From: Minisyncoccota bacterium
GTDB taxonomy: Bacteria; Patescibacteriota; Minisyncoccia; Phycocordibacterales; UBA1550
Length of the DNA stretch: 49,654 nt
Reading direction: 5' to 3'
Assembly (NCBI GenBank): GCA_028712595.1
Contig: JAQTPS010000001.1
Span: 29,132 to 78,785, forward strand
Position 1 is the stretch's first letter; every line of letters begins with the position of its first letter. Positions 1 to 6,222 of this stretch are shown piece by piece. The position numbers were made by a program, and so were the translations under genes. The notes below the pieces were generated by a model. The model searched no databases, was not told the origin of the DNA, and was given only the letters and a program-made list of their open reading frames with translations.

Positions 1-108
1 GAGGGCAACCGACAAAATAGCAATGATTGAAATAACAATCAAAAGTTCTAGGAGGGTGAAGCCGGCCTCTCGTTCCATCCTCAATTTCGTATTTGTAAAT
101 GAAGTCAT
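1..108 (-). CDS. Type IV pilin-like protein, 5' part only (runs off left edge)
   Basis: Only the first 36 codons lie in the window. The start at 108 is placed by identity with the complete pilin gene at 289-1050: this segment and 82 bp upstream are the same, base for base. It encodes a prepilin leader, the processing site (REAG/FTLLELL) and most of the hydrophobic N-terminal helix used for membrane insertion and pilus packing. It lies downstream of the complete pilin on the same strand, behind its own copy of the promoter. The C-terminal head, which would show whether the two pilins differ, is outside the window. Confidence 0.8.
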   Translation of the reverse strand, partial: MTSFTNTKLRMEREAGFTLLELLIVISIIAILSVAL

Positions 109-156
109 GTTTTCGTAAAAACTTAGCAAACAATTAATAACTAATAATGCTGGTAT

Positions 157-186
157 ATTATAGCATCTGGTGTTTATGAAGTGCAA
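157..186 (-). promoter_or_regulatory. Promoter of left-edge pilin
   Basis: On the minus strand TTGCAC, an 18-nt spacer and TATAAT, preceded by TGC (extended -10). It is identical to the promoter of the upstream pilin. The predicted leader is about 40 nt. Confidence 0.75.
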
Positions 187-229
187 GGATATCTGTGTGT
201 AAGTCTCTAAAAAGAGGATTACTAATAAA

Positions 230-263
230 AACAGCCCCTCCTTTTTGAAGTGGAGGGGCTGTT
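230..263 (-). terminator. Intrinsic terminator after the complete pilin
   Basis: A perfect 12-bp stem (AACAGCCCCTCC / GGAGGGGCTGTT) with a 10-nt loop. On the minus strand it is followed by TTTTTATTA. It lies about 25 bp past the pilin stop and separates it from the second pilin. Confidence 0.85.
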
Positions 264-288
264 TTCGAAATGAATTCTCAAAATTGAG

Positions 289-1050
289 CTAGAATGCTGC
301 TGCTGTTATTGGCAATAGGTTTAAGCTATTCCCAATTTCATACTTGTCGTCATTGTCTCCACCGTCTTTTGTCATCCTGTTGTCATCGACAGTGTATGCG
401 TTGCTTTCAAGAACTGCGTTAACCTCAAATACAAACCCTGGCTTTCCTGAGCCAACCGTTGAAGAAGTTGCGTTCTGGCATGCATAACGGTATACAAGAT
501 CTGTTTTTGCGGGAGTGGTTGCATTCACTGTGTTTGTGGGGTCAACTGGAAGATTTGAAATTGGGGACCCCGAAGTTAGATTTTTAAATACAATCTTAAT
601 CCAACCGTTTCCATCGATAGCTGCGGTACCAGCCGAGCACCATGCTGCTGCTCCACCGAAGGTAGTTGCCGCATCAGTTCCTGCCGCAGGAGCTGCGCCT
701 GTGCAAGCGACAGATGTGGTACTGTAGGCGATTTTTGCTGTGGAGTTTAAAGCCAATGTTCCTCCTCCAGGCGCAACTGTCAAACAGCTACCAGCGCCAC
801 CTGCTGCTGCAAAGTTGTCCAAACTTGGGGTGGATGTTGAAGTAAGCATCACACCGATGGCGGTTTTGAGAGTTTTTAGATCCGCAATGCGTCGCGCATC
901 ACGAGACTTTTTGAGAGCCTCTGCTGGGTTAAGCAAGAACACGAGGGCAACCGACAAAATAGCAATGATTGAAATAACAATCAAAAGTTCTAGGAGGGTG
1001 AAGCCGGCCTCTCGTTCCATCCTCAATTTCGTATTTGTAAATGAAGTCAT
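289..1050 (-). CDS. Type IV pilin-like protein
   Basis: A 253-residue prepilin. I start it at 1050 (MTSFTNTKLRMEREAG), not at 1203 as in the ORF track, because the extra 51 codons run through a clear promoter. A 16-residue basic leader ends in Gly, followed by mature FTLLELL with the conserved Glu at position 5 and a hydrophobic helix through about residue 43 (VISIIAILSVALVFLL). The helix continues as a charged segment (KKSRDARRIADLK), typical of pilin alpha-1. The rest is a Gly/Ala/Thr/Ser-rich globular head with four cysteines (SCL, ACT, WCS, ACQ) that could form disulfides. It would be cleaved by a prepilin peptidase, which is not in this window, and assembled by the type IV pilus machinery encoded nearby. 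It could be a minor pilin or pseudopilin instead of the main subunit. Confidence 0.87.
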   Translation of the reverse strand: MTSFTNTKLRMEREAGFTLLELLIVISIIAILSVALVFLLNPAEALKKSRDARRIADLKTLKTAIGVMLTSTSTPSLDNFAAAGGAGSCLTVAPGGGTLALNSTAKIAYSTTSVACTGAAPAAGTDAATTFGGAAAWCSAGTAAIDGNGWIKIVFKNLTSGSPISNLPVDPTNTVNATTPAKTDLVYRYACQNATSSTVGSGKPGFVFEVNAVLESNAYTVDDNRMTKDGGDNDDKYEIGNSLNLLPITAAAF

Positions 1051-1132
1051 GTTTTCGTAAAAACTTAGCAAACAATTAATAACTAATAATGCTGGTATAT
1101 TATAGCATCTGGTGTTTATGAAGTGCAAGGAT
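943..1132. repeat. Direct repeat copy 2 (pilin promoter plus leader)
   Basis: Second copy of the 190-bp block at 1-190. It covers the promoter, leader and first 36 codons of the complete pilin. The perfect identity over both non-coding and coding DNA indicates a recent duplication or ongoing gene conversion. Confidence 0.95.
1099..1128 (-). promoter_or_regulatory. Promoter of the complete pilin
   Basis: TTGCAC, 18-nt spacer, TATAAT with an upstream TGC on the minus strand. It predicts a leader of about 40 nt with no obvious Shine-Dalgarno sequence. It decides the pilin start at 1050. Confidence 0.78.
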
Positions 1133-1228
1133 GATTGTGTATAACTACCTGTGTATAACTTCTGAAGTATTGATGGGGTATTTTGTGGATGTCGCTCTGT
1201 CAATCTTAAATCGTTTTATCCTTGTCTT

Positions 1229-1615
1229 TTATGGTTGCGCCATTCCAATGTACGCTTTCATCTTTGCTATAACAGTTTGTATTGGAGAATCTACTTTTAC
1301 TAAGTATTCTCTTGCGCCGAGGGCAATGGCTCGGTCCTGGTCAACCTTTTGTCCGAGATTGGAGAGCATAATAACGGGAATCTTTGAGAGTTCGGGCTTT
1401 TTCTTTAATTGTTCCAACACCCAGAAGCCGTCTTTTTTTGGGAGCATAACATCCAAGACAACAAGGTCTGGGCGTTCTTCAATAATTTTTGCTAGAGCTT
1501 CTTCCCCATCTAGGGCAATTAAGACCAAAACACCGTCGTTGGCAAGCTTTATTTTGTAGATTTTGGAGATATGCTCATCGTCCTCTACAATCAATATTTT
1601 TTTCTGCTTTTCCAT
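1229..1615 (-). CDS. Single-domain response regulator (CheY-like)
   Basis: This 128-residue protein is one receiver domain with no output domain. The acidic pair (EDD, residues 11-13), the phosphoacceptor Asp in VVLDVMLP, the Ser in VIMLSNLG and the Lys in YLVKVD are all present. It is a close paralogue of the next gene upstream (DGFWVLEQLKK and SKIPVI are shared), so the pair arose by tandem duplication. It most likely receives phosphate from the kinase at 2124-4604 and acts by protein-protein contact, as CheY, Spo0F or PilG/PilH do. Its position between the kinase and the pilins suggests control of pilus function. That link is inference. Confidence 0.88.
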   Translation of the reverse strand: MEKQKKILIVEDDEHISKIYKIKLANDGVLVLIALDGEEALAKIIEERPDLVVLDVMLPKKDGFWVLEQLKKKPELSKIPVIMLSNLGQKVDQDRAIALGAREYLVKVDSPIQTVIAKMKAYIGMAQP

Positions 1616-1685: not shown

Positions 1686-2081
1686 TTAACTCACATTTTT
1701 CTCGCCTTCTTTTACATAATAAAGTACCTTATCAACTAATGTATTTAAATCATAATCCACCTTTACCAGATACTCTTTTGCGCCAAGCGCAAAAGCTTTT
1801 TCTTTGTGAGCTTCTTGCCCCAAATTGGAAAGCACGATAACGGGAATTTTGGAAAAATCGGGGTTTCTCTTTAACTGTTCTAGCACCCAAAAGCCGTCTC
1901 TCTTAGGAAGCATCAAGTCTAGAATAATAACATCGGGCCTGTTAGCGGTTATTATCTCCAAAGCTTCACCACCGTCACGCGCAAATAACGTCAGAAAACC
2001 TAACTTCTGAAGCTTTATATTATATGCACGGGAGTGGTGCTCGTCGTCCTCCACAATTAGTATCTTTTTTTGTTCGACCAT
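1686..2081 (-). CDS. Single-domain response regulator (CheY-like)
   Basis: A 131-residue receiver-only protein. I start it at 2081 (MVEQKKILIVEDDEH) and not at 2120, because a TATAAT box lies 9 nt upstream of this ATG and the longer ORF overlaps the promoter. The acidic pair (EDD), phosphoacceptor (IILDLMLP), Ser switch residue (VIVLSNLG) and Lys (YLVKVD) are intact. It lies immediately downstream of the sensor kinase (42 bp) and upstream of its paralogue, so the three form a probable phosphorelay with one kinase and two diffusible receivers. There is no DNA-binding domain, so regulation is not directly transcriptional. Confidence 0.88.
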   Translation of the reverse strand: MVEQKKILIVEDDEHHSRAYNIKLQKLGFLTLFARDGGEALEIITANRPDVIILDLMLPKRDGFWVLEQLKRNPDFSKIPVIVLSNLGQEAHKEKAFALGAKEYLVKVDYDLNTLVDKVLYYVKEGEKNVS

Positions 2082-2090
2082 ATCAGCACA

Positions 2091-2120
2091 ATTATAGCAT
2101 AAAAAGCCTTTGTCAAACAA
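2091..2120 (-). promoter_or_regulatory. Promoter of the first response regulator
   Basis: TTGTTT, 18-nt spacer, TGC directly before TATAAT on the minus strand. The -10 ends 9 nt before the ATG at 2081. The promoter starts just past the kinase stop codon, so the regulators can be expressed separately from the kinase. Confidence 0.65.
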
Positions 2121-2123
2121 TCT

Positions 2124-4604
2124 TTAGGAGGACCCTTTCGTTTCCGTGTTGTTATCCATAGAAGTAGCTATTTTCGAAGTAGTGGGTATTGTGAAGAAAA
2201 AAGTAGTTCCTTTGCCTTCTGGACTTTCAAACCATATCTTTCCTCCCCATGCAGTAATGAGATCTTTCACCAGGGCGAGGCCAAGACCCGATCCATCTGG
2301 TGTTTTTGTAATTGCGTTATCTGCTCTGAAGAATTTTGAAAAGATGTGCGCTCGTTGGTTCTCGGGAATTCCAATACCGTTATCGCTGACTGAATAGAGA
2401 ACTTCGGGTTTTCCCTCGCTTCGTTTCCATGATGCTTCAATTATTCCGTTTTCGTTCGTATAGCGGATAGCGTTTGATAACAAATTCAATATAACCTGTC
2501 GTAGACCAATGGCGTCAAGCCACACAACAATTGGCTCCCCTTCCGGCGGAAGGGTTTTTAAAATTAATTTTCTCGCGCTGGCTTGCGGCGCAAGTTCTTT
2601 GGAAATTTGCTCTGTGAACAAATTAAGGTTTATGGCTTCTTTTTCAGATTTAATTTTCCCGCTCTCAATGCGAGATATACCAAGAAGAAGGTCTATGGTC
2701 TGGTAGAGCCGTTCCGCTCCATCGTGGATTTCATTCAAAAAATCGCGTTGAGTTAAGTTGAGTGCCTCTGTGTTGTCAGAAAGGAGCATCTCTGAATACC
2801 AGCGTATCGTGGTAAGTGGCGTACGAAGCTGATGGGAAGCAATTGAGATGAATCCGGACTTCGCTTCGTCAAGCTCGCGATCTTCCGACACATCGCGGAC
2901 TACAATCACCGCGCCAGATGGTCCCTTTCCCAGTGGCGCCATTGAAAATACTATTGGGAGCTTGAATTGGCGTTTTTCGGTTGTGATAGAGAGTTCATCT
3001 TCGAGGTGAGTAACTACTACGGACTTTGCCAGAAGTACTTCTTTGGTCGGCCATTCTTCGTCTAAGGTTTCCTGCATTTTTTTCCTCTTAAGCTTAACAA
3101 CTTCACGAAGATCTTTGCCAAGAAGTTCATTCGAAGAAAGACAGAGCATTTCTTCCGCTTTTGGATTTACAAGCACAATCTTGTACTCCGAATCAATAAT
3201 AATGAGTCCATCTCCAATGGATGCAATGATTGTCTCGAGGCGCGCGCTTTGAATCTGGAGTTGTTCCTTCGCCTTCCAAGAGTTTTCAAGGAGGTTCTGA
3301 GTTGCTCGACTTGTTTGCTCAAGGAATTTTTCTTGCTTTCTGTGCTCCTCTATATCAGCCTCAAGTTGAGTTTTCTTTTCAGAAAGTTCTTTACTAACCT
3401 GGCGAAGTGTTCGTTCTGTCCACATTGTATTGTCGAGCATGTTATTGAAAACTCGAGCAAGGTAACTAATCTCATCTTTGCCGACAGAGGATGTCCGTGC
3501 CTTTATGTCTCCTTCCGCTACCTTTTTTGCTGTTTCAATTATATTGGCGAGGCGATCCAAGGGGCTGCGAACTGCAAGGAAAATTATTAGCAGGGACTCA
3601 AGAAAAATTGTGATGATTATTATTATTGAAGTGCGCACCATATCGTCATAGATTGAGTATGCTTCTTTTGTTTCTATCTCGGTGAGAATCACGACTCCAT
3701 CGCCTGCGAGGCATACTGACGCTCCGGCGACAAGGGTGCCTTTATAGTCCGAGTATTCTCCATCCACATCCCTGTTGCTTCGGAAACATTCTCCGGTTGG
3801 CTTTGGTATTACTTTTTGATTTTCAAAGAAACCCTTTTTAACAAAACGAGTTGGTGTGATTATAAACCCGTCTTTGTTCATAAAATATATTTCCGATGTA
3901 TTGAACATGGAAATAAACCCTCCGTTGAAGGTGCCGTTACGGCCCTTCAATGTGCCACGAAAAATGTTGACGAGATCCGAGAGTGAATTAGAATTAACCA
4001 CAAAAACGACCGGGAGGGGCACTGGTTTACCTTTCGAATCCAGTATGTTTGAAAAGAGTCGCGCTGTGGTACGAAATATTGGGTCTGAATCTTGACCATT
4101 TTCAAAAATAAATGGGTCGGTAATTGCTTCCTGGAAATCACCTTTTAGGATTTTTGGGAAAGAATCTGTGTCGGAAAGAGTTTCGCCCTTTTTTTCATTA
4201 TCGCCAACCCTATCCGAACTGCTAGATGCTAGTATGACACCCTCTGGGTCAACGAGATCAATAGAAAGAATTGTATTATCATATTTTATTTTCTCTTGGT
4301 TCACATAAACCATGAACTCATCAATAAGCGCTTTATGACTTTTAAGTGAGAGTTTTGGGTCTACGATTTTGCTTGCGAGATCTCTTGTGTATTTGTCCGA
4401 AGTCCAGTCAGCAATTCGTGCATTAAGCTTCTGAATAAATTCAAGGTATGCTCTCTCATTTTTGTACGCTGTAATGCGTAAGTTTGTAATAAGCTGTTTT
4501 TCAAAACTTGCGTGCACATGGTACGTAAGATACACAACTATAAGTGTTGCAAGAAAAATAATGAGAGTACCAAAAAATAAAATAGCTTTTGTGCGAATTT
4601 TCAT
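2124..4604 (-). CDS. Membrane sensor histidine kinase (periplasmic sensor-HAMP-PAS-HisKA-HATPase)
   Basis: An 826-residue kinase. Transmembrane helices lie at about 8-28 and 326-345 and enclose a roughly 300-residue extracytoplasmic sensor (two-helix entry, then a mixed fold like dCACHE). HAMP follows at about 346-400, a coiled coil at 400-455 and a PAS domain at about 456-570. The dimerisation and phosphoacceptor domain has H591 in SHQLRTPLTTI. The ATPase shows an N box (NLLSNAIRYT), G1 (DNGIGIPENQ) and G2 (GSGLGLALVKDL). It has no receiver domain, which fits the two separate receivers downstream. The ligand is unknown. It is transcribed divergently from the pilM operon. VicK/PhoR-type organisation is the nearest general match. 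Confidence 0.93.
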   Translation of the reverse strand: MKIRTKAILFFGTLIIFLATLIVVYLTYHVHASFEKQLITNLRITAYKNERAYLEFIQKLNARIADWTSDKYTRDLASKIVDPKLSLKSHKALIDEFMVYVNQEKIKYDNTILSIDLVDPEGVILASSSSDRVGDNEKKGETLSDTDSFPKILKGDFQEAITDPFIFENGQDSDPIFRTTARLFSNILDSKGKPVPLPVVFVVNSNSLSDLVNIFRGTLKGRNGTFNGGFISMFNTSEIYFMNKDGFIITPTRFVKKGFFENQKVIPKPTGECFRSNRDVDGEYSDYKGTLVAGASVCLAGDGVVILTEIETKEAYSIYDDMVRTSIIIIITIFLESLLIIFLAVRSPLDRLANIIETAKKVAEGDIKARTSSVGKDEISYLARVFNNMLDNTMWTERTLRQVSKELSEKKTQLEADIEEHRKQEKFLEQTSRATQNLLENSWKAKEQLQIQSARLETIIASIGDGLIIIDSEYKIVLVNPKAEEMLCLSSNELLGKDLREVVKLKRKKMQETLDEEWPTKEVLLAKSVVVTHLEDELSITTEKRQFKLPIVFSMAPLGKGPSGAVIVVRDVSEDRELDEAKSGFISIASHQLRTPLTTIRWYSEMLLSDNTEALNLTQRDFLNEIHDGAERLYQTIDLLLGISRIESGKIKSEKEAINLNLFTEQISKELAPQASARKLILKTLPPEGEPIVVWLDAIGLRQVILNLLSNAIRYTNENGIIEASWKRSEGKPEVLYSVSDNGIGIPENQRAHIFSKFFRADNAITKTPDGSGLGLALVKDLITAWGGKIWFESPEGKGTTFFFTIPTTSKIATSMDNNTETKGSS

Positions 4605-4625: not shown

Positions 4626-4714
4626 TGTTTATATGCAATATCTTTAGTTATTCGGAAGTTAAGTTGCATTTTCTCAACTAAATTTATTTAAGTATAGCAT
4701 GCAAATAAAAAACT

Positions 4715-4728
4715 TGGTATACTATAAT
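4715..4728 (+). promoter_or_regulatory. Promoter of the pilM operon
   Basis: Two overlapping -10 boxes: TGGTATACT at 4715-4723 and TATAAT at 4723-4728. Transcription would begin near 4730-4735, giving a leader of about 55 nt before the pilM start at 4789. The longer ORF start (4699) lies upstream of this promoter and is therefore unlikely. Confidence 0.6.
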
Positions 4729-4788
4729 GACAGGAAACATTATGCAGTGTATTTTGAAATTCTTAACAGTTCCTGTTTCCCTCCCCAA

Positions 4789-6222
4789 ATGAATATTCTT
4801 AATCTCTTAACAAAAGAAAAGCGCGTTGCTGGAGTCGAGGTCAGCGACGCAGTTGTTCGCATAGCATTTTTACGAGAGCGCAAGAACAAACGTTTAAAAA
4901 AAACGGACATAGAGCTTGTCCTTGTTGAAGAACCCATCAACGACGATATCATCATGGAGGGTCAGGTTGCCGACCCAGGGCTTTTAAGCAAGAGTCTCAA
5001 GTCTATTTGGAATAAGGCCCACATTGAGGCCGATTATGCCATTGTGTCAATTCCAGGAGACACAACATACTCTCGTATTTTCTCGTTTCCTAAAAGCGTT
5101 GCGGGCCAACGACTCACTGAAGCTATGAAGCTTGCAGTTAGTTATCAACTTCCCATGAAGATAGAGTCTACCTATCTCGACTGGGAACAGATACCAAGCA
5201 CGCGCTCATCAAATCAAATCATATTATCCACAATCCCAAAAAAAATTGCTGAAAGTTATATCGACGCTCTCGATGTGGCTGGGATAAAAACGCTTGCCCT
5301 CGAAACACATCTCTCAAGCATCGCGCGAGCAATAAAATTAAAACCTGGACAGGCGACTATTTTTACAAAAAAAACTCCTGACACAACGACTGTATTTATC
5401 CTGAAGGATGGCATATTGAGATTCTCGCGCATGCTTCCAAACAGGGTTGTCTCGGAAAAGGAACTTGCAGAAGAAATTCGCCGTATTAAAACCGCTTTTG
5501 AGGCGGAGGGTGAAGAAAATGCGGTGGAGGAATCCCTTGAAAATATGCCTGTATGCGATGACTACGCAAATTATCCAGAGTTGATGAAACAAGAGGGGGA
5601 AAAATCAAGATGGTTTCCTGCTTTGGGGGCGGTCATTCGCGGTCAAATTGAAGAAGGTCAAGATAATATTATATCTCTCCTTCCTGTGGGTACAGAGGAA
5701 GCATACACCTACCAAAAAGCTGCAGCATTTATGGGTCTTGTGCGAAATTTGACTATTGGCGTATCAGTATTTTTTATGATTGCATTTCTTGGATTTCATC
5801 TTTTTGTGGTTTCTTTGGCAGAGAGCTCTGCAAAGGCCAGCGCAACTCTTTCCGAGACCTCCCCGCTCGGAGAATTGACAGAAAAAGAGAATCTGATAAC
5901 ACACACGAATGATTTAAGCGAAACAGCCCAAAACATACTCTCTACCACGCCGATGTGGAGTACTGTGTTAACAGAAGTTACAAATCGAACTGTTGACGGT
6001 ATAACTATTTCACGCTTTGTTGCGTCGTCAATTAATGGGAAAATTGACTTGACGGGCATAGCAAGAGACCGTTTGGCTATTAATCAATTCAAAAAATCAC
6101 TTCAAGAATCCGCAATGTTCACTGGTGTCGATCTTCCAATTACAAACTTGGAGCAAAAAGGAAATGTCCCGTTCACCGTTTCGTTCAGCTTAAGTGACCC
6201 AAGTACGATATACTATAAATAA
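4789..6222 (+). CDS. PilM-PilN fusion, type IV pilus inner-membrane platform protein
   Basis: A 477-residue protein. I start it at MNILNLLTKEKRVAGVEVSD (4789), after the promoter. Residues 1 to about 290 match PilM, the FtsA/actin-like cytoplasmic protein: VAGVEVSDAVVRIAFL, AIVSIPGDTTYSRIFSF and ALDVAGIKTLALE. Residues about 293-477 look like PilN: an INLLP-like start (NIISLLPVG), one transmembrane helix at about 321-342, a short coiled coil, and the periplasmic ferredoxin-like domain (IDLTGIARD, VPFTVSFSLSD). In model systems PilM binds the cytoplasmic tail of PilN; here they would be one chain. It is followed 1 bp later by a pilO-like gene, so the PilMNO order is kept. The PilN half is recognised by pattern, not by a search. 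Confidence 0.82.
   Translation: MNILNLLTKEKRVAGVEVSDAVVRIAFLRERKNKRLKKTDIELVLVEEPINDDIIMEGQVADPGLLSKSLKSIWNKAHIEADYAIVSIPGDTTYSRIFSFPKSVAGQRLTEAMKLAVSYQLPMKIESTYLDWEQIPSTRSSNQIILSTIPKKIAESYIDALDVAGIKTLALETHLSSIARAIKLKPGQATIFTKKTPDTTTVFILKDGILRFSRMLPNRVVSEKELAEEIRRIKTAFEAEGEENAVEESLENMPVCDDYANYPELMKQEGEKSRWFPALGAVIRGQIEEGQDNIISLLPVGTEEAYTYQKAAAFMGLVRNLTIGVSVFFMIAFLGFHLFVVSLAESSAKASATLSETSPLGELTEKENLITHTNDLSETAQNILSTTPMWSTVLTEVTNRTVDGITISRFVASSINGKIDLTGIARDRLAINQFKKSLQESAMFTGVDLPITNLEQKGNVPFTVSFSLSDPSTIYYK

Follow-up and report, generated by a model that had tools for sequence, protein, structure and literature searches.

How do neighbouring pilin genes in a reduced patescibacterial genome come to share one promoter, leader and N-terminus, base for base? 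The question is raised by the window, the whole stretch of 49,654 nucleotides analysed here (C31:29132–78785), which comes from an uncultured member of the Patescibacteria (660 kb in 37 contigs); this genome is represented by one short-read assembly of one strain. Window positions 1–190 and 943–1132 agree at 190/190 positions, exactly as a preliminary description of the sequence had reported, and the match is lost from position 191 on. Besides this pair, the window contains no exact repeats of at least 25 nt. On the minus strand, the block comprises a sigma-70-like promoter, a leader and codons 1–36 of a prepilin, with the start codon 48 nt after the −10 box, a composition that had likewise been read correctly. 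The TTGCAC/TATAAT promoter is a manual reading of the sequence, and the B/C promoter is absent from the list of the automatic promoter scan. The two copies contain the following elements.

1–190, minus strand: 5′ block of pilin B (promoter, leader, codons 1–36), identical to 943–1132; the complete B ORF, head included, is found left of the scaffold gap
943–1132, minus strand: 5′ block of pilin C, identical to 1–190
157–186, minus strand: putative promoter of B, TTGCAC (186–181), 18-nt spacer, TATAAT (162–157), by consensus resemblance alone
1099–1128, minus strand: putative promoter of C, TTGCAC (1128–1123), 18-nt spacer, TATAAT (1104–1099), read from the sequence
106–108, minus strand: start codon of pilin B, with the class III leader MTSFTNTKLRMEREAG/FTLLE (N_methyl PF07963, E=5.9e-7)

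In 287 pairs of pilin coding sequences taken from different genomes, exact matches extend to 29 nt at most, with a median of 14 nt for the longest match per pair; the 190-bp identity is thus far above chance. The 5′ leader shows no folding (z = +1.2), and an Rfam scan of the window returned a single tRNA and no riboswitch or leader RNA.

Further elements were located upstream of both blocks by sequence comparison.

194–202, minus strand: TTACACACA, the position-equivalent of the TTATCCACA box before pilin B in relatives
1136–1158, minus strand: two TTATACACA boxes upstream of C, at 1144–1136 and 1158–1150

The DnaA-box-like TTATCCACA lies 27–33 nt before a −10-like TANAAT and occurs upstream of pilin B in most relatives. 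The combination of TTATCCACA and TANAAT gives 55 matches in 16 genus genomes, mostly at a spacing of 28–31 nt, versus 1 for a reversed-pattern control; widening the spacing to 10–40 nt gives only 91 matches (control, 4). Judging by this pattern, TTATCCACA could mark a fixed-spacing regulatory box serving many promoters.

Three complete pilin genes are present at the locus, transcribed in the order C → B → A, instead of the two tandem genes first described. They are embedded in genes for regulation and pilus assembly.

289–1050, minus strand: pilin C, 253 aa, with an A-type head and no difference from pilin A between −5 and +653
C31:28284–29012: pilin B, 242 codons, start codon and leader included, complete ORF left of the gap
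C31:27317–28090: pilin A, 257 aa, complete ORF beyond B
227–266, minus strand: strong intrinsic terminator between C and B (fold −26.8 kcal/mol, z = −7.2)
1229–1615, minus strand: response regulator RR1 (PF00072, E=8.6e-21), same neighbour in relatives
1686–2120, minus strand: response regulator RR2 (PF00072, E=7.3e-22), supported by synteny
2124–4604, minus strand: sensor histidine kinase with HAMP and PAS domains (domain search, synteny)
4699–6222, plus strand: PilM/PilN-type pilus assembly protein (PF11104, E=1.6e-10; PF05137, E=1.4e-5)

All three proteins match PF07963 N_methyl (E about 6e-7) and score above the cut-off of TIGR02532, and the pilins of the locus carry the class III leader (G/FxxxE) and N-terminal hydrophobic helix of type IV prepilins. 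In pilin C, a helix is predicted at 19–60, and a structure model (14 sequences) with a mean pLDDT of 41.5 is confident only in the N-terminal helix. Sequence matches to Geobacter pilins cover only the N-terminal part of the latter. Downstream of the array lie a membrane protein and a PilB-type ATPase (PilB/T2SSE, E=2e-126), linking the pilins to an assembly ATPase on one side and PilM_2/PilN on the other, as expected of type IV pilins. A second strong terminator follows pilin A (−25.2 kcal/mol, z = −7.7), and none was seen after pilin B in the fold scan. The leader of pilin A contains a tetranucleotide repeat, TTGC on the plus strand (6.5 copies, L007:3645–3670, equal to C31:28144–28169), between a −10-like TATAAT and the start codon; it is possible that this leader varies in length through the repeat.

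The window starts at an assembly break: a 100-N scaffold gap (C31:29032–29131) immediately precedes its base 1. Left of the gap, the final bases (C31:28905–29031) exactly repeat window 1–127, 127 nt being the sole overlap length detected, and the ends of contigs C20 and C35 in this assembly likewise dovetail by exactly 127 nt. The comparison covered the stretches surrounding the locus and the ends of the contigs; in contig C9 (2853 bases), the 400 bases at either end consist of N throughout, presumably withheld sequence. A de Bruijn assembler characteristically leaves exact overlaps that all have one length, here with k = 127, the highest k in common SPAdes use. We therefore read the gap as an unresolved-repeat overlap, because an exact 127-nt overlap is what an assembler with k = 127 leaves.

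1–127, no strand assigned: exact 127-nt overlap with the left side of the 100-N gap (C31:28905–29031), a probable assembler k-mer overlap

Since the left side ends with window 1–127, window 1–190 is the 5′ block of the next pilin, B. The assembly overlap has probably caused positions 1–127 to be written twice in the scaffold, and the real chromosome probably contains them once; there is probably no true gap, both sides overlapping and the 5′ block of B running straight into the head to the left. The second pilin head, which had been treated as lying out of reach beyond the window, is thus present on the same contig across the 100-N gap. The gap could hide further identical pilin units. Repeats placed exactly at window or contig edges need a check for k-mer overlap before they are called tandem copies.

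Our comparison of the three genes reveals a mosaic. No base differs between B and C from −82 to +108, and beyond this tract they differ; when the sequence is followed to the left and the heads are aligned, as had been proposed, the proteins are 56% identical (search alignment). By comparison, the identical tract of A and C runs from −5 to +653 (658 nt) and gives way abruptly to divergence; this tract exceeds k, so that the assembler could have merged scattered inner single-base differences, whereas the 190-bp tract is safe from such merging because a collapsible bubble needs 127 identical bases per side. The first 217 codons of A and C show 0 differences, and 12 of the 29 codons compared after codon 217 differ (10 synonymous and 2 replacement), an abrupt change by Fisher's test (p = 2e-11, or 3e-5 counting one 127-nt flank only). 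Upstream of −5, the promoter region of pilin A is a diverged homologue of the B/C promoter region. Within this genome, exact coding matches reach 108 and 653 nt. Sharply bounded identical tracts between older paralogues of one genome, the pattern by which gene conversion is recognized, are therefore present here. The earlier picture of a conserved 5′ block with a variable head holds for B versus C and fails for A versus C, in which the head is shared over 217 codons.

The genus provides the background for this mosaic. Among the 15 other genomes searched, 7 carry a close-spaced B–A pair with diverged N-termini, and all of these pairs (7/7) follow response regulators and precede a membrane protein and PilB; an additional B–A pair is found in UBA6023 (L104). 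In the relatives, A begins a few tens of nucleotides past B with no promoter-like sequence between, whereas in this genome B and A lie further apart and a diverged version of the B/C promoter precedes A. The tree of heads separates a B-type group from a group holding the A-types; the branch with all A-types also includes G013_M and two outgroup pilins (support 98/92), and G008_B adjoins it. The N-terminal core reads SIAL in 8/8 A-types of relatives and SVAL in the readable B-types of the genus, and A and C of this genome both read SVAL. At the DNA level, A- and B-type N-cores are 0.63–0.84 identical in most genomes. The longest exact coding match within a relative is 11–19 nt, except in G011 (51 nt, A/B N-terminal cores), in which the sequences suggest that a smaller event like that of A, B and C probably occurred; these matches were counted on coding sequence only, the 131–227 nt obtained with upstream sequence included being an artefact of overlapping regions. 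In the relative G013, a third pilin lies between B and A (L117:5413–6111), with a B-like N-terminal core and an A-like tail; judged by its sequence, it is another expansion of the same array, of intermediate type. The relative G007 has a 31-N run (L112:5647–5677) in the N-terminal core of pilin B and other short N runs elsewhere in its assembly, and the run in pilin B may be a chance or a repeat-related break.

Taking the mosaic, the gene order and the assembly overlap as observed, we infer a recombination mechanism and its direction. With a probability of roughly 80%, an old B–A pair and an extra A-type copy, C, have been patched by homologous gene conversion between neighbouring copies. Gene conversion is favoured because parts of the same genes differ in age, unlike what whole-gene duplication or selection alone would produce. 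The early suggestion that the copies are kept alike by gene conversion fits well with B and C heads that are ancient paralogues and with diverged DNA upstream of the block, and it gains further weight from the independent A–C tract, which stops abruptly inside the gene. In the ancestral state of the genus, A would have closely followed B, after the response-regulator pair and before the membrane protein and PilB. This genome would have gained an additional A-type gene, C, upstream of B, and RecA-type homologous recombination between neighbouring copies would have overwritten parts of the genes; RecA is encoded in the genome. One tract would account for the 190 bp of promoter, leader and 36 codons that B and C have in common, and another for the identity of codons 1–217 in A and C, so that A-type heads would have come to lie behind a B-type promoter and N-terminus. 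A candidate path runs from a B–A–B–A duplication, through deletion between the first B and A in their N-terminal parts, to C–B–A. The promoter and N-terminus of A and C would derive from B-type, because both read SVAL and A has a B-like promoter; the direction of conversion from B to A/C is thus suggested by one diagnostic residue and by promoter homology. The shared block would be a by-product of conversion, possibly favoured because it keeps expression and the assembly interface in step. DNA taken up from a relative may have taken the place of internal conversion.

A conserved 5′ block could also act as a recombination anchor by which heads are exchanged into an expression site, the pilin switching that the preliminary description had envisaged. 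B and C do combine an identical 5′ block with different heads, past recombination between copies is evident and RecA is present, but we regard this use of the block as improbable. Each of the three complete genes has a start codon, a class III leader and a promoter-like sequence, and strong terminators follow C and A. Silent or partial pilin copies outside the array, which had been put forward as something to look for, were not found when the genome was searched with C and B DNA; inverted repeats of at least 25 nt are absent from the 10-kb region of the locus, and a G-quadruplex motif (G3+N1–7) is absent from 9.8 kb around the array. Pilin switching by this cell is therefore unsupported. It is just as doubtful that the array is an active pilus diversification system of an epibiotic patescibacterium, in which heads would be reshuffled among expressed copies via a promoter-plus-N-terminus anchor; if it were, reshuffling within the population might, for example, alter the host cells or phages that the pilus meets.

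Recent duplication of a whole gene without conversion, also offered earlier as an origin of the block, is somewhat less probable still. It would account for the presence of C, a gene additional to the pattern of the genus that matches A exactly across 653 nt of coding sequence. However, the tail and upstream regions of A and C have diverged while the middle has not, a sharp change in divergence inconsistent with simple duplication unless the C tail was imported from another lineage, and duplication does not fit B and C, whose heads are ancient paralogues. An assembly artefact, in which window 1–190 would be merely a spurious second copy of 943–1132, is very unlikely. The suspicion is natural for a window that begins at a scaffold gap with an exact 127-nt overlap, and for that stretch, written twice in the scaffold, it is justified; for the gene it is not, as B and C differ upstream of the block and in the head, that is, on both flanks. 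The entire B ORF stands on the left side with only partial protein identity to C, three distinct upstream regions and three distinct tails require three genes, and the existence of B as a gene is confirmed by the B–A pairs of relatives. Purifying selection on promoter, leader and N-terminus as the sole cause of the identical block is rejected and keeps next to no probability, since, functional elements though the promoter and N-terminal helix are, conservation between relatives does not extend to synonymous sites or leader, with N-cores diverged as described and matches mostly of 11–19 nt.

With gene conversion as the preferred explanation, we further infer expression and co-assembly of the products. 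All three pilins are probably expressed, to judge from their sequences, and the subunits, which have one N-terminal helix segment in common, would either replace one another or assemble together. One machine could polymerise A, B and C because their first 36 residues are identical. A search for literature on gene conversion or tandem pilins in Patescibacteria/Parcubacteria retrieved nothing relevant; the locus would provide a documented case of gene conversion among the pilin genes of a single reduced patescibacterial genome, and it suggests that a promoter and N-terminus can be transferred together, as one unit, to a different pilin head. Pili in Patescibacteria are candidates for host attachment.

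Comparison with known systems places the array among several precedents. In Neisseria pilE/pilS, silent and partial pilS copies act as donors (PMC4023411); homologous gene conversion among pilin copies would be common to both systems, whereas the copies here are complete with promoter-like sequence and start codon, and the G4 motif was not found in the region searched. In Moraxella bovis pilA, an invertible segment with inverted repeats flips the C-terminal end of the gene (PMC9585708). Both loci hold two pilin C-terminal versions that share a 5′ part, but here the genes are direct and tandem, each with its own promoter-like sequence. The type IV pili of Saccharibacteria (TM7x) serve host binding and motility according to the accessible part of the report (PMC12206443), which does not describe shared identical blocks for TM7x; TM7x belongs to a different class, and the two have in common patescibacterial pili with several pilin genes close to the pilus machinery. 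The Haloferax volcanii adhesion pilins PilA1–6, whose N-terminal hydrophobic domain is almost completely conserved and whose remainders differ (PMC4371748), form a comparable pilin family. Unlike in these archaeal pilins, identity here reaches synonymous sites, leader and promoter, and therefore points to recent recombination beyond protein constraint alone; that it exceeds protein constraint had been recognized at the outset, and the leader and synonymous sites indeed differ between relatives. Finally, Streptococcus sanguinis PilE1/PilE2 form a heteropolymeric type IV pilus from two major pilins with one machine (PMC10628169). The present array differs in its three genes, in its phylum and in a B head that is about half identical to that of C, and it resembles PilE1/PilE2 in joining an identical N-terminal helix segment to heads or tails that differ.
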